From a virus, in IMG/VR virus record IMGVR_UViG_3300027593_000199, positions 1-63,465 of that record: DNA of 63,465 nt; one strand, written 5' to 3'. A program made the translations under genes and the position numbers. Of the stretch, positions 39,128 through 48,209 are shown one piece after another. The first letter of the stretch is position 1. The number at the start of each line of letters is the position of its first letter. The notes below the pieces were generated by a model. That model worked only from the letters and a program-made list of their open reading frames with translations, searched no databases and had not been told where the DNA came from.

Positions 39128-39570
39128 TGTCTTCTCTTTAGTAGAGAGTTTAACATCCATGCATGCTTCTTATGGGCGTCATATCTATCTTGTATGAAAT
39201 TAGAAAGTCCAATCTCATCAAATTCTTCTGCCAATTCGTATGCTTCTCTTAGAGAGGCTAACACTATCTGATTATCACCTGATAACGTATTAAACATCTC
39301 TCCAGCTGATGGAGCACCTGTACTATCGGCGATGCTTGATAATTCTTTAAATCTTGAAAATGATCCTGGAGCATATTCCCCAAGAGCTCTAATCTCTTCT
39401 GCAATCTTATCAACTGCTCCGTAGACTTCTTCATATAGGTTACCAAGGAATTCATGGTACTGAGGAAAGTCCGGACCTTCTACATTCCAATGAAACTGAT
39501 GTGCTTTCAAATAGAAAGCAAAGCTATCAGCAAGTACAACTTTCATCTTTTCTGTTAATTGTTCTCTCAT
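39124..39570 (-). CDS. dps: Dps/ferritin-like protein
   Basis: 148 aa, the usual Dps length. Core signature HQFHWNVEGPDFPQYHEFLG then AVDKIAEEIRALG contains His27, His39, Asp54 and Glu58 of the ferroxidase site; the residue matching E. coli Asp67 is Gly43, so the site may be altered. Dps dodecamers bind DNA and oxidise iron. Here it is flanked by capsid-targeted genes, so it might protect DNA in the virion or host; it has no targeting peptide itself. The second ATG (TAATG) is preferred. Confidence 0.88.
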   Translation of the reverse strand: MREQLTEKMKVVLADSFAFYLKAHQFHWNVEGPDFPQYHEFLGNLYEEVYGAVDKIAEEIRALGEYAPGSFSRFKELSSIADSTGAPSAGEMFNTLSGDNQIVLASLREAYELAEEFDEIGLSNFIQDRYDAHKKHAWMLNSLLKRRQ

Positions 39571-39839
39571 TACCATGCCTTACATGACCAATATCTTGGC
39601 GTTGTTTTATCAGATGCAGTATCGCAATTATGACGAGCTCTAAAGCTCTTGCGACGTGCAGGTATATGTTTCTTGATAGAAAGATTCTTATCTCCGAAGT
39701 TTACCTTCTGAGCCTTACCATCTCCATCAGGATCAACAAATACTTTAGACTTCTTAACATCACCAGCCATAGGCTTGTTAAGAGGTACTTTCTTACCTTG
39801 AAACTCAGCTTCTGTGATAAACTCTAAAAAACTTAGCAT
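39570..39839 (-). CDS. Capsid-targeted basic protein, DUF5872-like
   Basis: 89 aa. N-terminus MLSFLEFITE followed by AEFQG fits a capsid-targeting peptide cut after Ile-Thr-Glu. The mature part is basic and ends KSFRARHNCDTASDKTTPRY and WSCKAW, a Cys/Trp domain I recall in other phage virion proteins. Probably a small DNA-binding internal protein. Confidence 0.75.
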   Translation of the reverse strand: MLSFLEFITEAEFQGKKVPLNKPMAGDVKKSKVFVDPDGDGKAQKVNFGDKNLSIKKHIPARRKSFRARHNCDTASDKTTPRYWSCKAW

Positions 39840-41998
39840 TGGTTATTTGCCTTTCTTTTGGCACGTAACATTCTTGCAAACGCTTCAACAGCTTCACCTG
39901 GAGTATCTTTTTTATATTTATTTGTTAGTTTATTTGTGCCTTCATCACCAGCACCATCTTCTTCCATGACAGAAGGATGTAACTGGAACCCACCTTGTAT
40001 CTTCATACCTAAATCAGCTGCAGTATAAACTCCACTATAACCTGACGCACGATCAACTATGAAACTCTCATCAACAGACTCTTTTCTAACACCAGTTGCT
40101 TGCTTCTTTGTCTTTACTCTATCCTGATAAGACTTCTCATCAAACGGTCTATAATCAGCTGCGGCTGCTACAACAGTATTTGCTGCTGATTCAAGTGATT
40201 TTCTTGCTGCAGCACCAGCATTAACAATCTTATCTGCTAATGAAGGTTCAGAACCTTCTGTATACAGATGACCGTACTTCTTTTCATGATCCTCACGCTG
40301 CTTCTTCTGCTTAGCAATTAGATTAAGTAAGCGGTCAGCACCTTTATCAGCATCGTACCCATGTTTCTTTAAACTATCTTTAAATTTATCACGTGGTGAC
40401 TTTGGTTGTACTGCTTCCTGAGCATCAATGAAGTTTTGTTTTGTTGGAGCACCTTCTGAACCAGGCTTTCTCATCTTCTCACCAGATCCACGAGCAATAC
40501 GCTTACGCTTAGCGTGAATGTTATCCCACAGTCCAGCTTCTGCTAAATGAGAGTTAACTCTCTGCATTGCAAACTGATGTGCTGTGGCATTATTTCTACC
40601 ATCATAGTCAGCTAGACCTTGTTCAAAAATATCTTTGACTTCTTCAAAAGTAACTCCATACTTTTCTGCTTTCTTAGCAAGAGCAGTATTAGCCTTCTCT
40701 TGTAAATATGCTCCGTGATCCCATTCTCTATGAGATACAATGGTAGTAGCTGCGTTCGGAGTCTTTGTCTTGTATGTTTGAGGAATAATAATAGAAGAGG
40801 ATGTATTAGCAGTAGGAGTCTGCTTAGCTGGCATTGAACCTACTTTGGTGTAGGTTGCTATCTGCGACTTACCTTTGTTCTTTCTATTAAAGTCACCAAT
40901 CTTCTGATTAACAGTCTTCTTGATGTCACCAAGAGCATTAGCTTTGTCTTGATCAGCCTTCTGTTGATCTTTTGGATTCAAAGACTGCTTTGCTTTTGCT
41001 ATTGAAATCTTTCCTAACTCAGTCTTTTGTTTAGACTGGATGACAGCCTGCTTTTGAAGTTCTTTTTGATTCTTAGATAGCTCCGGAGCTTTAGTGCTAC
41101 CAGATGACTTAGAATCTGATTCAGGAGGTTTTCCTATTGTTGATAGTTTCTTAGCAGCAAGTCCAGCGCCAATCAGCGTAGAACCAAGAGCTCCTCTGGG
41201 AGTTGACATGGTATGAGCTAAAGCACCAGCTGCCAATCCTGCCTTAGCTATGTTACCAGCTACACGGAAAGGAGCACCTGCTATAGACTTCAAGTTTTGG
41301 CCAATAGTGGCCTCATACATTGAGAAGAAGTTGTTTAGATCTTCAACGGTAAGCTGTTCACCAATTAAATTACTATAAATTGGAATATATTCTGAATTGA
41401 TATTTCTCGCAGCACTGTATACACCTTTTGTGGATCTACCTGTCTGAACCGCATACAATCTCTTCTGCTCACCTTTTCTAACTGTTGGCATCATTCTACG
41501 AGCCATGTTTCTAATCTGAGCTTCACGACCCTTCAAACGGTTATCAATATTAATCTTTTCTGCAGCAGATAACGAATTATATTTTACACCGCGTGCACCA
41601 GCAATCCTTCTTCTGAGATTCTGTTTAGCCATTCTCATAGCTCTCTGCTTCAACTTTTCGTTCGATGCAAGTCTAGTTCTAAGAATCTTACGCTTCATCT
41701 TCATCTTTGGCATTCTACGTCTTAGAGCCATAGCACGCTTACGACGCTGAATAAGATTTACAGTGCGTTCAATTAGAGTTTGTTCTGTCTGAAACTTCGT
41801 TGGTTTTTCTTCTGGATTAACGACAATTTTATCAAGTCTGCTACCAGTCAACGAAGCTAATCCCTGCTGAGCACGCAATTGTTGCTGCTGCTGTTGTATT
41901 TGCTCAGGAGTAAGAGGAGCTGGTTGCGCAGGCGCAACTCCAGCTGGAGGTGGGGGTGGTGGCAAGGCTTGCTCGCCGAATTCTTTAAATGTAATCAT
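39833..41998 (-). CDS. Large Arg/Lys-rich internal protein candidate
   Basis: 721 aa. N-terminus MITFKEFGE followed by QALPPP fits a capsid-targeting peptide. Residues about 80-190 are strongly basic (RRRMPKMKMKRKILRTRLAS, MAKQNLRRRIAGARGVKYNS), a domain widely seen in T4-like phages that should bind DNA. Then low-complexity helical regions. TATAAATA promoter upstream. Probably a packaged DNA-binding protein. Confidence 0.75.
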   Translation of the reverse strand: MITFKEFGEQALPPPPPPAGVAPAQPAPLTPEQIQQQQQQLRAQQGLASLTGSRLDKIVVNPEEKPTKFQTEQTLIERTVNLIQRRKRAMALRRRMPKMKMKRKILRTRLASNEKLKQRAMRMAKQNLRRRIAGARGVKYNSLSAAEKINIDNRLKGREAQIRNMARRMMPTVRKGEQKRLYAVQTGRSTKGVYSAARNINSEYIPIYSNLIGEQLTVEDLNNFFSMYEATIGQNLKSIAGAPFRVAGNIAKAGLAAGALAHTMSTPRGALGSTLIGAGLAAKKLSTIGKPPESDSKSSGSTKAPELSKNQKELQKQAVIQSKQKTELGKISIAKAKQSLNPKDQQKADQDKANALGDIKKTVNQKIGDFNRKNKGKSQIATYTKVGSMPAKQTPTANTSSSIIIPQTYKTKTPNAATTIVSHREWDHGAYLQEKANTALAKKAEKYGVTFEEVKDIFEQGLADYDGRNNATAHQFAMQRVNSHLAEAGLWDNIHAKRKRIARGSGEKMRKPGSEGAPTKQNFIDAQEAVQPKSPRDKFKDSLKKHGYDADKGADRLLNLIAKQKKQREDHEKKYGHLYTEGSEPSLADKIVNAGAAARKSLESAANTVVAAAADYRPFDEKSYQDRVKTKKQATGVRKESVDESFIVDRASGYSGVYTAADLGMKIQGGFQLHPSVMEEDGAGDEGTNKLTNKYKKDTPGEAVEAFARMLRAKRKANNQC

Positions 41999-42052: not shown

Positions 42053-42688
42053 TTACACTACTGCAAACAGCTTGTCGGCATGGCCGAAATGTCCTTGTAT
42101 ATTCTTATAACCAAGAGGGTCTAATAACATACTTATCTCTTTGCTAACCGTCTCCATCGTAATTACAGGTAGAAATCGAGAAATAGTATCCATTCCCCCA
42201 GCAATCACATTTGGTTCATATCCTTCACAGTCTAAACTAATATAATCACACTGCTCTAGTGCTAGTTGGTCAATCGTAAAAGTTGGGATAAAAGTATCGC
42301 CTTTATCAGATACTCTATGAGCACCAACGTTTCTCATATCATTTCTATACATACTTAATAATTTATTAGTCTCACCGAGTGCAGCATTGATCTTATAGAT
42401 ATTGTCTTTTTGACAATTGTGAGCTAGACAATGGAAGTTAAGTGGGTCTGGTTCGAATGTATATACTCGTTTGAACATATCAGAAAGTAGTCTTGGGTAC
42501 ATTCCACAATTACCACCAGCTTGAATACAAACCTCAAACTTCTTAACATGATTAAGGATTCCTTGCTTGAGTGGTCCCCAGTCAGATTTAGGACCATCCC
42601 ATGCTCCACTATCCTCTGTTATCCAGAGCCAGTTTCTTATTCCTTCTATTTCATCATCTTTAATAGATACTAACTCACTGTAATCCAC
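42053..42688 (-). CDS. FkbM-family methyltransferase
   Basis: 211 aa with GTG start overlapping the previous stop (TAGTG). SAM motif CIQAGGNCGMYPRLLSDMFK, acidic strand in TFEPD, and the FkbM signature YISLDCEGYEPNVIAGG. It lies inside the late operon between capsid-targeted genes but has no targeting peptide. Methylation of sugars on virion proteins or host glycans is possible. Second FkbM gene in this window. Confidence 0.87.
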   Translation of the reverse strand: MDYSELVSIKDDEIEGIRNWLWITEDSGAWDGPKSDWGPLKQGILNHVKKFEVCIQAGGNCGMYPRLLSDMFKRVYTFEPDPLNFHCLAHNCQKDNIYKINAALGETNKLLSMYRNDMRNVGAHRVSDKGDTFIPTFTIDQLALEQCDYISLDCEGYEPNVIAGGMDTISRFLPVITMETVSKEISMLLDPLGYKNIQGHFGHADKLFAVV

Positions 42689-43296
42689 TATTCAACTCCC
42701 ATTCCAGATCTAACGTCTTTGTATATTTCTCTCGAGTGTGATTCGTTCTTCTTGATCTTACTTGGAAGACCAGCTTTGAATTTACCGTAGTTACCACCTG
42801 ATGCATGGTTACGCATATCTGTACCACTAACACCAGCTTTACGTTCACCAGTATTTGCTACAGAAATTGAATCAAAATGATACTCACCATGTGGCTTACC
42901 TTTCACTCCATTATACTTATGGAGTAAAGTCTTATACTCTTCTGCTCTATCACTACCACCAGCAATCACTAAATGCTTGGCACCGGTCTTAGCAATCTCT
43001 GCTGCATGATGCATAATAGTAGGGTGTGCTTTAGAAGCTGTAGAGATAGTTGTATTATCAAGATGTCCAAAAGCACGTTGTAGATGCTTTTGTTTTTGTT
43101 CTGGAGATAGTGGATTCTTCTTGGCATCATGAGATCCACTTGCTACTACGTGAAGCTGAGCATTATGTTTAGTTGCAAGATCATGAGCAGCATTTACATT
43201 CTCTTCATGACCACTGGTGATAGGATTCATTCTACCAAATAGTAGAACAGCGGACTTAGCCTTTTCTTCTAATAGAAAACTTATAAATGATTTCAT
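42688..43296 (-). CDS. Nucleotidyltransferase (NMNAT/cytidylyltransferase-like), capsid-targeted
   Basis: 202 aa. Begins MKSFISFLLE-EKAK, consistent with a capsid-targeting peptide (Leu-Leu-Glu). Catalytic GRMNPITSGH (His30 of the HxGH-type motif), ASGSHDAKKNPLSPEQK and the second motif VSGTDMR mark an adenylyl/cytidylyl transferase fold. Substrate unknown; NAD synthesis is one possibility, or activation of a nucleic-acid end. ATGA-coupled to its HAD neighbour. Confidence 0.82.
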   Translation of the reverse strand: MKSFISFLLEEKAKSAVLLFGRMNPITSGHEENVNAAHDLATKHNAQLHVVASGSHDAKKNPLSPEQKQKHLQRAFGHLDNTTISTASKAHPTIMHHAAEIAKTGAKHLVIAGGSDRAEEYKTLLHKYNGVKGKPHGEYHFDSISVANTGERKAGVSGTDMRNHASGGNYGKFKAGLPSKIKKNESHSREIYKDVRSGMGVE

Positions 43297-43904
43297 CTGC
43301 TTGTCGTCTTTGATATTCCATCGCCCTCAACATGGTGAGCATGGAATGATGTGTTTGGATGCTGATCCTTCAACCCTAAGAAGGAGTGCAGGTTTGTTTT
43401 ACTATCATCGTACATATGAACATCCTTATACTTATGCTTGGCAACATAACCATGAATCACTTTAGCTTTTTTCTCAGCAGGTAAAGTATCTTGATTTATA
43501 TTACCAGCTCTAATCACATGGATGTTCTTCATATTGATACCATGCTTCTTAAATGTATGTAAGAATTTATTCTTATTATCAAAGTTAGCACGTGCAGTGT
43601 TGAAGATAACATGATTGTGAGGATTAGCTGATACTCTCTTTAGGTGATTAACCATATTTGGCATCGGCTTTGATTCTTTATTAAACTTCTCAGCATTTCT
43701 AAACTCACCAAAGTCATAGCTATGACCTTTTGGAAGTTTGTGGTTATTAAACTCTTGATTACTCAAAGTCTTAACTACTTTACCTTGTGGATCTTTTACA
43801 TGGATCTGAGCCGTAGTGTGCATTAATGTATCGTCAATGTCAAAAATGTGAAGAGACTTCTTCTGCGTAGTACCTTCTGATATAAATTCTTTAAAGCCGA
43901 TCAT
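43293..43904 (-). CDS. HAD-superfamily phosphatase, capsid-targeted
   Basis: 203 aa. Begins MIGFKEFISE-GTTQ, a targeting peptide ending Ile-Ser-Glu. HAD motif I HIFDIDDTLM (Asp22, Asp24), motif II FNTARAN, and motif IV MYDDSKTN. The small cap-less layout resembles the 3'-phosphatase half of T4 polynucleotide kinase. It could remove 3' phosphates, with the ligase-like neighbour acting next. Substrate is inferred. Confidence 0.82.
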   Translation of the reverse strand: MIGFKEFISEGTTQKKSLHIFDIDDTLMHTTAQIHVKDPQGKVVKTLSNQEFNNHKLPKGHSYDFGEFRNAEKFNKESKPMPNMVNHLKRVSANPHNHVIFNTARANFDNKNKFLHTFKKHGINMKNIHVIRAGNINQDTLPAEKKAKVIHGYVAKHKYKDVHMYDDSKTNLHSFLGLKDQHPNTSFHAHHVEGDGISKTTSR

Positions 43905-45094
43905 TATTGTCTCGCTGCAAAGTTTTGTCTACTAAATTCTGCTCTATCAACAACCTTAGTTGGTCTATTATTTATTACTGCAACATATCCCTCTGGTTTA
44001 GAAGGCTGGCCATTAATTGTTGTATTGAACATAGGACTAGCTGCCATAGCATGATTATGCACATCCTTGGCCTGCTGTAGGTGATGATGAATTTGAAATA
44101 CTTTATCGATAGTATCAGAGTGACCTCTAAGAGTACCAAGTTGGTTATTCATTGCCAGAGTCTTACGATCAATAGCTCCTTGCGTCTTTACCTTGGCTAT
44201 TTCTTTTTGATGCTGACTTTGTACATGATCATATAGATCAGTAGCATTAGGAGTAGTGCCATCTCTAACTGTCTTGTTAATATATGTCTTAATATGATCT
44301 AGGTGAGGTTCCACCTTCTTGTAATCCTCTGGCTTCATACTTCTATGAAGCTCATCTGCCTGAGCCATGTGTTCTTGAAAGTCTGCCTGACGAGCGGGGT
44401 TGTAATCTGCCTTCGTCGAATCAAACTTATTGTTAATTACATGCACATCCGGATGTTCATTAAAGTGTGAAAGATCAGGATCGTAGTCTGCTTTCATTGT
44501 TTCAAAGTTACCACCCTTGTACCCAGTATGAACTGCAATACCAAATTGAGATTGAGCTACTTTCTGACCTTCTTCTGAATTAGCAGGTGCATGATACTCA
44601 ACTAGGTTTGGTTTAAAGCTATGAACTTTACCATTAGTATTTACATCACCGTGTGGATTGGTATCAGAGTTGATACCAGCATGCATTACATCACCCTGAA
44701 ATATTCCTGTCTTAGGAGTTACCTTTGGGAGATGATATAGTGCAAGATTTAACTTGTTGACAAGACCTGGAGCATGTCCATGATTCTTTTGAACATCATC
44801 GTAATCATAATTTAACTTAGGCTCTTTGTTGAAAGCTGATTTGGTAGCAACAAAGAACTGACCTGTTGCTGGATGATGACCAAATACAATAGAAGGACTT
44901 CCATCCATCTTTTCATACAAAGCTGCACCACCCTTTTGACCTGTTAGTGTTTTATGTACTGCATTCAATGTATTCTTTGCATGCTGATATCCTTCAGCAC
45001 CAGCATTAAGTACATGATCTTCTGCATGCTCAAGGTGAGTCAGCTTCTCTTCGTTAGCAGCTGATTCTTTCAGCAATGTGAATATATGACGCAT
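43904..45094 (-). CDS. Ligase/nucleotidyltransferase-like protein (KxDG), capsid-targeted
   Basis: 396 aa. N-terminus MRHIFTLLKE-SAAN fits a targeting peptide cut after Leu-Lys-Glu. Motif I of covalent nucleotidyltransferases is ALYEKMDGSPSIVFG (nucleophile Lys62), GIFQGDVMH resembles motif III, VEYHAP sits downstream and PEGYVAVINNRPTKVVDR resembles motif V. This is the pattern of RNA/DNA ligases. TAATG-like coupling to both enzyme-like neighbours. No OB-fold domain recognised, so a ligase-related but not proven activity. Confidence 0.75.
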   Translation of the reverse strand: MRHIFTLLKESAANEEKLTHLEHAEDHVLNAGAEGYQHAKNTLNAVHKTLTGQKGGAALYEKMDGSPSIVFGHHPATGQFFVATKSAFNKEPKLNYDYDDVQKNHGHAPGLVNKLNLALYHLPKVTPKTGIFQGDVMHAGINSDTNPHGDVNTNGKVHSFKPNLVEYHAPANSEEGQKVAQSQFGIAVHTGYKGGNFETMKADYDPDLSHFNEHPDVHVINNKFDSTKADYNPARQADFQEHMAQADELHRSMKPEDYKKVEPHLDHIKTYINKTVRDGTTPNATDLYDHVQSQHQKEIAKVKTQGAIDRKTLAMNNQLGTLRGHSDTIDKVFQIHHHLQQAKDVHNHAMAASPMFNTTINGQPSKPEGYVAVINNRPTKVVDRAEFSRQNFAARQ

Positions 45095-46060
45095 TTAGTG
45101 TCCTAAGGTCTTTTTAAATGATTCTAGATGCTCATCATTATCAAGGTTTACATGGCTTGGAGCAAGACCTGCTTTACCTGCAGGTTGGAACATTACTGTA
45201 CGATGGGATGGGTTGTCGGTCTTTTGACGTACAGTCCACTTTCCTTTTCCAGACATTCTTGGAAGACCATGGCCTGTAACATCTTTACTACCGACTCTAT
45301 ATGTACCGTGACCTTCTCCAACTTGTAGTACATGAACTCCGTGATCTTTTAAATATGATTCAGCTGGACCTAAGTTTGAATGGTCTTTATAAACATTCTG
45401 TGCTTTACCTTTTGCTGACTTCTTTATCTGACCTTCTTTATCAGGATTGTGGTGAGTATTGAGATGATCTATAATTCCAGCATCTTCAATTTCTTTAGCA
45501 TATCTAGGCCTTAGTTGTTTTGCCTTGTCCGGAATATGCCAACCTCCTTTTTTTGGATCGTGGTGGATTGTCAATTGGCCAAAAGCTGCCTTAGTGTTGA
45601 GCTTGACTTCACCAGAATGAACTGTACCAATAATCGAACCCTGATGTACTTCTTTTTTCTTTTTGTTTAGAATAGGCACATCAGTACCAGCAGAAGATCC
45701 TGCTGGCTTATGTCCTTCTGGAACAAGACCATGCTGCTTAAATCGGTTGAAGGTGTGCTCTTCATATTCATGACCTTTGTTAACGACCTTTGTTCCAGGT
45801 TTATTCAACTTACTCAAAGGCACCCTCATCTTCTCACTAGATCCAACTTTTGATACAGTGGCTGAATGATTGCCATCTTCTTCGTGGTGTGCATGAAGAA
45901 CTACAGACTCCCCTGAACCAGCAAGAGTATGAGTTCCTTGTTCGGAATGTTTAGATCCACCAGGTAGATATGGTTTAATGTAACTATCAACATGCCTGTT
46001 AACTTTAAGACCAGATCCTGCAATAGTTGCTTCTTTTAAGAAAGTTATAAATGTTTTCAT
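45095..46060 (-). CDS. PD-(D/E)XK-like nuclease candidate, capsid-targeted
   Basis: 321 aa. N-terminus MKTFITFLKE-ATIAG, nearly the T4 internal-protein signal. Restriction-nuclease-like core: EYEEHTFNRFKQHG (Glu100/101), SSAGTDVPIL (Asp127), then HSGEVKLNTKAAFGQLTI with Glu151-Val-Lys153. Lys- and His-rich overall. First gene of the late operon behind a CATAAATA promoter. Predicted to cut nucleic acid; capsid delivery would bring it into the host with the DNA. Confidence 0.7.
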   Translation of the reverse strand: MKTFITFLKEATIAGSGLKVNRHVDSYIKPYLPGGSKHSEQGTHTLAGSGESVVLHAHHEEDGNHSATVSKVGSSEKMRVPLSKLNKPGTKVVNKGHEYEEHTFNRFKQHGLVPEGHKPAGSSAGTDVPILNKKKKEVHQGSIIGTVHSGEVKLNTKAAFGQLTIHHDPKKGGWHIPDKAKQLRPRYAKEIEDAGIIDHLNTHHNPDKEGQIKKSAKGKAQNVYKDHSNLGPAESYLKDHGVHVLQVGEGHGTYRVGSKDVTGHGLPRMSGKGKWTVRQKTDNPSHRTVMFQPAGKAGLAPSHVNLDNDEHLESFKKTLGH

Positions 46061-46105: not shown

Positions 46106-46113
46106 TATTTATG
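46106..46113 (-). promoter_or_regulatory. T4-type late promoter (CATAAATA)
   Basis: CATAAATA, one mismatch from TATAAATA, 46 nt before the PD-(D/E)XK-like gene and just after a terminator. Confidence 0.6.
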
Positions 46114-46122
46114 TCATAATAT

Positions 46123-46152
46123 AATACGAAGAAACCCACCGAAGTGGGTTTC
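46123..46152 (-). terminator. Rho-independent terminator with UUCG loop
   Basis: 9-bp stem GAAACCCAC/GTGGGTTTC with TTCG loop and T-rich 3' side on the minus strand. Ends the 46175-46570 transcript. Confidence 0.85.
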
Positions 46153-46174
46153 CTGATCTCATGAAGCTTCTTCT

Positions 46175-46618: not shown

Positions 46619-47173
46619 TTAGAAAATTGCGTCCGCTACACCCAAATCTACACATTCCTGCGCAGTTAACCAAACATCTGATGGTGGCAGCAGCTTTCGC
46701 TTAATCACCTTCTCATCCATTGAACAGCTATCTTTTACAATATCCAGCATACGCTGTTTAATATACTTCGTCTCTTTTTCATATGCCTTAGCATCATGCT
46801 CTTTACCTTCATAATAGGTAGAGAACTGGTGGCACATAACGCTTGTGTTTTTAGTAACTCTACGACGACCTTTGGTACCAGTAATGAATATCAAGAATGC
46901 AGCACTCATTAGTGAGCCTACACCAATTGTTGCAACAGGTATCTTACTAGCCTTGATCATATCAATCAAACCAAAAGCACTATAAAGATCCCCACCAGGA
47001 CTATTAATTACAAGAGTAAGTTCTTTACGTTTACCTTCGCAATTTTCAGCCATAATCCATCTAATACAATCACCTATGTTATCATCGTTAATTTCACTAG
47101 AGAGATAAAATGTGCCACTCTCATATAGTACCATGTCGATACTATCCAATACATTTGAAGCTTCACTAGTCAT
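46619..47173 (-). CDS. clpP: ClpP-like serine protease
   Basis: 184 aa; AGGA precedes the ATG at 47173, and the longer frame would reach into the preceding gene. ClpP fold with LVINSPGGDLYSAFGLIDMI, a Ser in the GVGSLMSAAFLIF loop, His in MCHQFSTYYEG and Asp in PPSDVWLTAQECVDLG. A proteolytic core that would need an unfoldase such as host ClpX/A. Could process host or virion proteins; it is not the T4 gp21 protease type. Confidence 0.88.
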   Translation of the reverse strand: MTSEASNVLDSIDMVLYESGTFYLSSEINDDNIGDCIRWIMAENCEGKRKELTLVINSPGGDLYSAFGLIDMIKASKIPVATIGVGSLMSAAFLIFITGTKGRRRVTKNTSVMCHQFSTYYEGKEHDAKAYEKETKYIKQRMLDIVKDSCSMDEKVIKRKLLPPSDVWLTAQECVDLGVADAIF

Positions 47174-47183
47174 AAAATTCCTA

Positions 47184-47666
47184 TCAAGGAGGGCAGTTAA
47201 TAGTCTTAGCAGCGTCAACTACAACCTTATCGCTACTACCTTGTTTACGAAGGTACGAAGCTTGAAGGTCATATGCTTCACGTTCCTTCTTATACCAAAC
47301 ATCACAGGTTCTAGTACTACCCTGTCTTACATACTGAACATGATGTACCATCTCGTGGAAAATAATGGATCTCCACAAAGGGTGCTTTGCATCATAATCT
47401 TCATCAAAATATATCGCACCATCTTTATATATGGCGGTTACAGTATCACACTTAGGTGCACCTTCGCAGTATAGTGCTTGTAGATCTTTCTCGTTAAGTG
47501 AGTACATACGCGGCATAGGAACAGAGCCTTCATACTTCATCATCTTCTTGGCTTCTTCCAATAACGATATCATCGCAGGGGAAGGAGTAATAGTATACTG
47601 CGTCTTAGGAGCAGCAACTGCCAGCGTAGATATACATAATAAAATAGTAACTAAAAGGCGTGTCAT
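47184..47666 (-). CDS. Exported zinc metallopeptidase (HExxH)
   Basis: 160 aa. The start at 47666 gives a clean signal peptide (MTRLLVTILLCISTLAVAA); a longer frame crosses the promoter. Zinc-binding H104-E-x-x-H108 in IIFHEMVHHVQYV. Likely periplasmic peptidase of about 140 residues with two or more Cys. TTGACC/TATAAT promoter directly upstream. Possible roles: wall or host-protein cleavage. Confidence 0.75.
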   Translation of the reverse strand: MTRLLVTILLCISTLAVAAPKTQYTITPSPAMISLLEEAKKMMKYEGSVPMPRMYSLNEKDLQALYCEGAPKCDTVTAIYKDGAIYFDEDYDAKHPLWRSIIFHEMVHHVQYVRQGSTRTCDVWYKKEREAYDLQASYLRKQGSSDKVVVDAAKTINCPP

Positions 47667-47696
47667 AGATATTCCCAATGAGTTGTCAGTATTATA

Positions 47697-47725
47697 ATTA
47701 TACGGGAATGGTGAAAAAAGGTCAA
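47697..47725 (-). promoter_or_regulatory. Strong sigma70-like promoter (TTGACC/TATAAT)
   Basis: TTGACC, 17-nt spacer, perfect TATAAT, 31 nt before the metallopeptidase start. A nearby AATAAATA (47751-47758) could add late expression. Confidence 0.8.
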
Positions 47726-47732
47726 CGGTTAA

Positions 47733-47752
47733 ACACCGCATAGAACGTGGTA
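47733..47752 (-). terminator. Weak terminator-like hairpin
   Basis: Short imperfect stem ACCAC/GCGGT-type around TTCTATG, resembling a decayed version of the 2622 terminator. It lacks a long T run, so function is uncertain. Confidence 0.3.
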
Positions 47753-47759
47753 TTTATTA

Positions 47760-48209
47760 TTATTCGAACTGCAATCTACCAGTCGCATAACACTCAGAAA
47801 GGAAGTCGTGATAAAGGTCTTCATCAATACTAAACGCTTCTTTTTCCCACGGTTGATCACTGTATTTGACATTACGATACCGCTTACCCATCCACACATC
47901 AACAATATCATCTTTTACATATATTATCTTGAGCTCTTTTTGAACGTACTGTTTGACATGGACTATCTCGTGAGCTAATGTGATTAGAGCTAACTCAAGT
48001 GACATTCCTTTCTTGAGTTCAATTAAATACTTAGAAGCACTCACTCTTTCACATGATCCATCAGAGTCCATTGAATCATATCCGATGATATCAATTTGAA
48101 GTTTTGATCGTTTATCTGATGGAATAAGCTGTTGAAGATAGAAGTCAGCAGCTTCACGGATATATCTAATCAGTGTCCTGTCTTTGAACTTTCTTGTCTT
48201 TATTTTCAT
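47760..48209 (-). CDS. SprT-like metallopeptidase-like protein (HExxH)
   Basis: 149 aa, no signal peptide. H80-E-x-x-H84 in ITLAHEIVHVKQYV with a helical environment. Resembles cytosolic SprT/Wss1-type or phage-encoded short metallopeptidases. Downstream Tyr/Trp-rich segment (MGKRYRNVKYSDQPWEKEAF) contains another possible metal ligand. Substrate unknown. Immediately behind the helicase cluster. Confidence 0.72.
   Translation of the reverse strand: MKIKTRKFKDRTLIRYIREAADFYLQQLIPSDKRSKLQIDIIGYDSMDSDGSCERVSASKYLIELKKGMSLELALITLAHEIVHVKQYVQKELKIIYVKDDIVDVWMGKRYRNVKYSDQPWEKEAFSIDEDLYHDFLSECYATGRLQFE

Follow-up and report, generated by a model that had tools for sequence, protein, structure and literature searches.

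There is about an even chance that four consecutive genes of a T4-like phage are expressed late and encode capsid-targeted enzymes for processing nucleic-acid ends, and the product of one of them, a DUF6267 protein, is predicted to adopt a nucleic-acid ligase fold. The genes lie in IMG/VR virus record IMGVR_UViG_3300027593_000199, the 63,465 nucleotides of which were analyzed as a whole and are hereafter called the window. Profile matches to T4-like replication genes, namely DNA polymerase, UvsX, gp41-type helicase, and ribonucleotide reductase, were found in this record, and its source is a marine-type, T4-like phage of bacteria related to the Kyanoviridae. An initial annotation made from the letters alone had placed four consecutive genes with enzyme-like cores at 42688-46060; all four open reading frames (ORFs) were present on the minus strand, where they are arranged in tandem, from 46060 down to 42688, and adjoin or overlap by a few bases. 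In that order they encode a two-domain nuclease-like protein (45095..46060, 321 aa), the DUF6267 protein (43904..45094, 396 aa; Pfam DUF6267, E 4e-90), a HAD phosphatase resembling T4 polynucleotide kinase/phosphatase (43293..43904, 203 aa), and an HxGH-class, NMNAT/cytidylyltransferase-like nucleotidyltransferase (42688..43296, 202 aa), each starting with a capsid-targeting sequence (CTS). The window DUF6267 protein shares at most ~32% identity with those of isolate phages, the nearest being that of Pelagibacter phage HTVC008M.

The ligase assignment rests on an AlphaFold2 model built from 48 sequences (mean predicted local distance difference test score, pLDDT, 92.2) that was compared with solved structures using VIA-align. 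All 50 best rows were nucleic-acid ligases, headed by the Naegleria RNA ligase (Z 10.8, 184 residues, root-mean-square deviation [rmsd] 3.4) and followed by REL1 (Z 8.9), T4 Rnl2 (8.6), T4 Rnl1 (8.3), and then DNA ligases (~7). Ligase motifs occurred in the expected order, K62xDG (I), Q133GD (III), G185..H189 (IIIa), E368GYV (IV), and K380xVDR (V), and were invariant or nearly so across the 48 proteins, with K62, D64, G65, Q133, D135, E368, G369, K380, and R384 invariant. Motif III reads QGD, with D where E is usual, and between motifs IIIa and IV lies a helical insert (about 233-350). For neither this model nor that of the nuclease did Foldseek alone give a PDB match at E 0.001 or better; the fold calls rest on VIA-align. 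No Pfam RNA_ligase match occurred in the window, and a sequence search of solved structures with the DUF6267, nuclease, HAD, and nucleotidyltransferase proteins gave no convincing match. Fold and residues together point to DUF6267 as a ligase-type nucleotidyltransferase that, by sequence, is not a member of the Rnl2 family.

The DUF6267 family is represented in no fewer than 468 deposited phage genomes, where the records examined annotate it as hypothetical. When a cellular origin was sought in ~85,000 genomes, only 22 contigs were recovered, nearly all from metagenome-assembled bins, and DUF6267 therefore looks phage-borne. One homologue was located in a 188 kb contig of the isolate genome of Nonlabens xiamenensis (L122:6001-7161), possibly a prophage or a co-sequenced phage. 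In another locus (L106:5972-8240) the gene is apparently split into two ORFs, while it is intact in a close relative (L107).

The nuclease-like protein was modeled from 13 sequences (AlphaFold2, pLDDT 79.6). Residues 94-318 matched the HhaI endonuclease (6uke; Z 10.8, 179 residues, rmsd 3.8), with all other VIA-align rows at or below 6.5, including HinP1I (Z 5.7). The N-terminal domain (about 16-91) matched Tudor/PWWP/KOW folds (Z 5-6.5) and is predicted to be Tudor/SH3-like. E100, E151, and K153 were invariant in 13 relatives and D127 was conserved in >90%. The HAD gene matched the phrog_415 profile, 'polynucleotide kinase' (E 8e-9), and contains the motifs D22xD24xT (DxDxT), T103AR (TAR), and D166D167 (DD), of which D22, D24, T26, and T103-A104-R105 were invariant or nearly so in 11 relatives. 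Its 3'-phosphatase activity is not certain because one relative also exceeds the Pfam cut-off for acid phosphatase. The nucleotidyltransferase matched the cytidyltransferase profile phrog_3041 (E 5.5e-45) and has homologues in 524 phage records. G29, H30, S157, and R162, within its motifs T27SGH30 and S157GTDMR162, were invariant or nearly so in nine proteins. The window protein scored 17.3, below the Pfam cut-off of 21, with one relative scoring 38.7, while scores against NMNAT equivalogs were far below cut-offs and NadR/NMNAT profile matches were weak; these profiles do not discriminate between NMNAT, PPAT, and cytidylyltransferase. The initial annotation had recognized these same cores, and its residue numbers were correct (E151/K153, K62 in KMDG, D22/D24, H30, and SGTDMR at 157-162). 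Its PD-(D/E)XK-like nuclease and KxDG ligase-like protein are upheld at the level of predicted fold, and its likening of the HAD protein to the phosphatase of T4 Pnkp agrees with the profile match and conserved motifs. Its HxGH nucleotidyltransferase was right in class, with the reservation that the motif here is TxGH (T27-S-G-H30), the commoner family form: among 61 homologues the first motif residue was T in 40 and H in four, with 17 unmatched. Loss of the catalytic residues in homologues, which it had named as evidence that would count against the proposal, was not observed, these residues being invariant or nearly so in all four families.

Capsid targeting of the four genes, also claimed by the initial annotation, was likewise borne out at the level of sequence. 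All four starts resemble the T4-type CTS (slashes mark the presumed cut; all on the minus strand): MKTFITFLKE/A in the nuclease (46031..46060, residues 1-10); MRHIFTLLKE/S in DUF6267 (45065..45094), modeled as a separate, low-confidence helix; MIGFKEFISE/G in the HAD protein (43875..43904), relatives of which also carry a CTS; and MKSFISFLLE/E in the nucleotidyltransferase (43267..43296), with a homologous CTS in S-CREM2, S-SZBM1, S-WAM1, and P-SSM2. Two regular expressions, one strict and one broader, were set before comparisons were made, and the window DUF6267 start fits the broader rather than the strict one. Across loci of diverse DUF6267 relatives, from which near copies had been removed, a strict CTS was found at the start codon of 43/83 DUF6267 ORFs, compared with 22/696 other same-strand ORFs and 1/243 mostly antisense ORFs. 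It was rarer in the partner families, occurring in four of 10 nucleases, three of 10 HAD proteins, and 10 of 59 nucleotidyltransferases, and several fused ligase-nucleotidyltransferase proteins also begin with a CTS. Among 57 distinct DUF6267 tags fitting a looser pattern, the residue before the presumed cut was Glu in every case, even though Asp was also permitted, and Leu or Ile invariably stood two positions before it. The prohead protease, Peptidase S77, was not found within the 63 kb fragment, but four related contigs (54-133 kb) encode it.

In one phage, a published virion list links the tag to packaging. In S-CREM2, a strict CTS occurs in four of 219 proteins, gp6 (S-adenosylmethionine [SAM] hydrolase), gp13, gp14 (APH-like kinase), and gp154 (nucleotidyltransferase), each of which belongs to the virion (Fisher p = 0.0029; virion list PMC10665884). 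Homologues of the fourth window gene, known as T4-GC190, are contained in virions of S-SM1 (PMC3037559), S-SZBM1 (PMC9146016), S-CREM2 (PMC10665884), and S-SCSM1 (PMC9602691), and the S-CBWM1 virion is credited with one too, by citation. Some authors caution that the virion nucleotidyltransferase may be an abundant protein that was carried over. Apart from the nucleotidyltransferase, the S-CREM2 SAM hydrolase, small protein, and APH-like kinase (gp6, gp13, and gp14; L019:3837-5081 and L019:10310-12846) are further candidates for injected enzymes. Another S-CREM2 virion protein, gp12 (L019:7704-10313), carries the annotation CRISPR-Cas9 nuclease and contains a CTS-like LRFASFMAEAA ~17 residues in. 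Its start may have been annotated too far upstream, and the protein looks like another packaged enzyme.

Functional linkage was assessed in 83 DUF6267 loci, many of which end at contig ends. A nucleotidyltransferase was encoded within about 6 kb in 56/83, and S-8S53, S-WAM1, S-SZBM1, HTVC008M, and Melnitz all have the order uvsX - helicase - (variable) - DUF6267 - nucleotidyltransferase, to which the DUF6267 - nucleotidyltransferase order of DLP_6 is related. The two are also repeatedly joined in a single polypeptide: DUF6267 precedes the nucleotidyltransferase in five loci (L054, L056, L057, L059, and L062) and a more distant HxGH domain in three (L082, L084, and L086), while a 937-aa protein has the reverse order, HxGH nucleotidyltransferase - SET - DUF6267 (L093:1325-4138). 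In 13 loci (L037-L041, L046, L047, L050, L052, L060, L061, L063, and L065) the nucleotidyltransferase polypeptide continues into a P-loop kinase-like domain that is Zeta_toxin/AAA_33-like, mostly below the Pfam cut-off. Other partners were less frequent, with a nuclease-like gene in 16/83 loci, a HAD gene in 10/83, and a separate kinase in 3/83. The nuclease-like genes form three sequence groups, two of which differ from that of the window and were assigned by position and core motif rather than by significant similarity. HAD and kinase genes co-occurred in none of the 83 loci, where about two were expected (not significant, the numbers being small), and the two may substitute for each other across loci. 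The full four-gene set was seen only in the close clade of the window phage. Co-occurrence of the four genes, which the initial annotation had proposed as a check, thus held for the ligase-nucleotidyltransferase pair, recurrent and repeatedly fused, and not for the set as a whole beyond its own clade. The recurring core is the ligase plus the nucleotidyltransferase, to which nuclease, phosphatase, or kinase are optional additions.

Late expression of the block is suggested by its upstream signals. A late-promoter-like ATAAATA (46106..46112, minus strand) lies 52 nt upstream of the nuclease gene start, itself preceded by an intrinsic-terminator hairpin that closes the preceding transcription unit (46130..46153, minus strand; -18.4 kcal/mol, z -3.9), so that the block reads hairpin (46153-46130), ATAAATA, and then first gene. 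Of the 15 ATAAATA sites on the minus strand, eight have a gene starting no more than 75 nt downstream (p = 1.8e-5); the total number of such sites in the window is no higher than chance, and placement alone stands out. Just upstream of the block are a ClpP-like protease and two HExxH-type metalloprotease-like ORFs (46619-48209), and directly downstream is an FkbM-family methyltransferase gene without a CTS (42053-42688). Further downstream, a 721-aa protein with an Arg-rich region (39833..41998, minus strand) has the CTS-like start MITFKEFGEQA, and the CTS motif search also returned a small tagged protein (39570..39839, minus strand; MLSFLEFITEAEFQGKK...). The Arg-rich block recurs at the C terminus of the DLP_6 nucleotidyltransferase and in a small gene of phage Melnitz, while the body of the small CTS protein (AEFQGKKVPLNKP...) recurs in HTVC008M and Melnitz beside the same module.

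By analogy with T4, the CTS would draw each enzyme into the prohead core, where the prohead protease would clip the tag after Glu, and all four enzymes would then be injected with the genome and be catalytically active. DUF6267 would act as a ligase-fold adenosine monophosphate (AMP)-transferase joining 5'-phosphate and 3'-OH ends, the HAD protein would clear away 3'-phosphates that stand in the way of sealing, and the role of the HhaI-like nuclease would be to cut or trim DNA, be it host, competitor, or damaged. Repeated fusion suggests that the nucleotidyltransferase may supply or recycle the nucleotide or nicotinamide adenine dinucleotide (NAD+) cofactor of the ligase. If the ligase uses NAD+, a partner that adenylylates nicotinamide mononucleotide (NMN) could regenerate it, which would explain the fusion. 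Candidate substrates are incoming DNA ends, damaged RNA, and NAD+-linked chemistry, and the set would likely serve to maintain the function of incoming phage nucleic acid, or of damaged host RNA, in the first minutes of infection. We also propose, tentatively and at odds clearly below even, that DUF6267 constitutes a new polynucleotide ligase family, packed in T4-like heads with a cofactor-recycling nucleotidyltransferase (often in one polypeptide), a restriction-type nuclease, and either a phosphatase or a kinase, forming a preloaded end-repair machine that is injected with the genome.

Several observations weigh against an end-processing set. DUF6267 lacks the usual C-terminal ligase domain, profile-profile comparison (hhalign) with the T4 Rnl2 family was not significant (probability 0.1%, only motif IV aligned), and Foldseek alone was weak (E 0.03). 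No P-loop end kinase (AAA_33) was found in the 63 kb fragment, although a kinase is present in other DUF6267 loci. Many cyanophages encode DUF6267 without a CTS, and the CTS-less proteins of S-SZBM1 (SSZBM1_141) and S-CREM2 (gp87) are absent from the virion lists of those two phages. Their absence agrees with the tag being decisive, yet it also means that some phages do not package the ligase; co-delivery with the genome is therefore not essential to the role of DUF6267 in all phages. In S-SZBM1, three annotated genes have a strict CTS; the virion list includes the nucleotidyltransferase but neither of its two small neighbors, and this replicate of the CTS-virion test (1/3 detected) was not significant alone. 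Of what the initial annotation had put forward, predicted folds, catalytic residues, capsid targeting, and functional linkage all speak for end processing, and virion detection stands for nucleotidyltransferase homologues; it does not extend to untagged DUF6267, and the complete set is confined to one clade.

Other readings share parts of this evidence. A narrower form of the end-processing set, possible if doubtful, is an RNA repair kit like T4 Pnkp/Rnl1, preloaded in the virion, in which ligase and phosphatase, plus kinase in relatives, mend tRNA or mRNA cut by host ribotoxins. The closest folds to DUF6267 are indeed RNA ligases, the HAD protein is of the polynucleotide kinase (PNK) type, and kinase genes of relatives have PNK/PSTK-like profiles; rank order among ligase folds does not fix the substrate, however, the PD-(D/E)XK partner suggests DNA, and loci with a HAD gene have no kinase, though not to a significant degree. 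We consider it rather unlikely that the set is centered on NAD+, with the packaged nucleotidyltransferase (and the kinase of relatives, in a NadR-like layout) making or restoring NAD+ against NAD+-depleting defenses and DUF6267 acting as an NAD+-using or NAD+-linked AMP-transferase. NMNAT-like proteins in several cyanophage virions, the weak NadR/NMNAT profile matches, and the NadR-like layout of the nucleotidyltransferase-kinase fusions are consistent with it, and NMN recycling would fit fusion to a ligase-fold protein. Yet the kinase matches Zeta_toxin/AAA_33 rather than ribosylnicotinamide kinase, the nucleotidyltransferase falls far short of the NMNAT equivalogs, and the HhaI-like nuclease and PNKP-like phosphatase are left unexplained.

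The complete catalytic residues and predicted restriction-enzyme fold of the nuclease could instead indicate an attack on host or rival DNA, with ligase and phosphatase repairing the phage's own ends. We consider this unlikely. GCGC was not avoided in the window (44 seen vs. 42.6 expected), a few other palindromes were only mildly depleted, and just a minority of DUF6267 loci contain a nuclease-like gene. Reuse of the enzyme folds as structural core or DNA-binding internal proteins, devoid of catalysis, is most improbable: internal proteins often bind DNA and several neighbors are basic and of low complexity, but in all four families the catalytic residues remain invariant even though identity is down to about 30%.

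The ligase assignment of DUF6267 is the most useful result, as the fold, fusion partner, and capsid tag make a protein family with no assigned function directly testable as an enzyme, and the long-noted virion NMNAT-like protein gains a likely partner. The CTS rule offers a simple means of compiling candidates for injection among the enzymes of T4-like marine phages, in which early host takeover is poorly understood. Packaged enzymes (T4 Alt and the cyanophage NMNAT-like protein) and phage ligase/PNK repair sets are already known. In the literature searched, no paper named DUF6267 and no packaged ligase-nuclease-phosphatase-nucleotidyltransferase set was described, in keeping with the claim of the initial annotation to novelty, save that the packaged NMNAT-like protein alone was known; neither the packaged set nor the ligase and nuclease assignments seem to have been described so far.

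Among known systems, the cyanophage virion NMNAT-like/cytidylyltransferase (T4-GC190) is the direct homologue of the fourth gene, carries a CTS in several phages, and has been detected in virions, but the published accounts consulted treat it alone, as an NAD+ regulator, with its ligase and nuclease partners annotated as hypothetical. The T4 internal proteins IPI, IPII, IPIII, and Alt share with the window set an N-terminal MKxFxxF[LI]xE-type tag, a T4-like phage background, late genes, and expected cleavage after Glu. Their cargo is a restriction inhibitor or ADP-ribosyltransferase, whereas that of the window consists of predicted ligase, nuclease, phosphatase, and nucleotidyltransferase folds. 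With RNA repair by T4 Pnkp and Rnl1/Rnl2, the window and its relatives have in common a ligase fold with a KxxG-type lysine, a PNKP-like HAD phosphatase, and, in relatives, a kinase. Unlike that system, DUF6267 shows no significant sequence similarity to Rnl2, has a helical insert and no C-terminal ligase domain, and features a packaging tag and, in relatives, fusion to an HxGH nucleotidyltransferase. No cognate DNA methyltransferase was noticed adjoining the nuclease gene, the product of which is predicted to share the fold and E-D-ExK active-site pattern of HhaI and HinP1I and differs from both in its additional Tudor/SH3-like N-terminal domain and its CTS.

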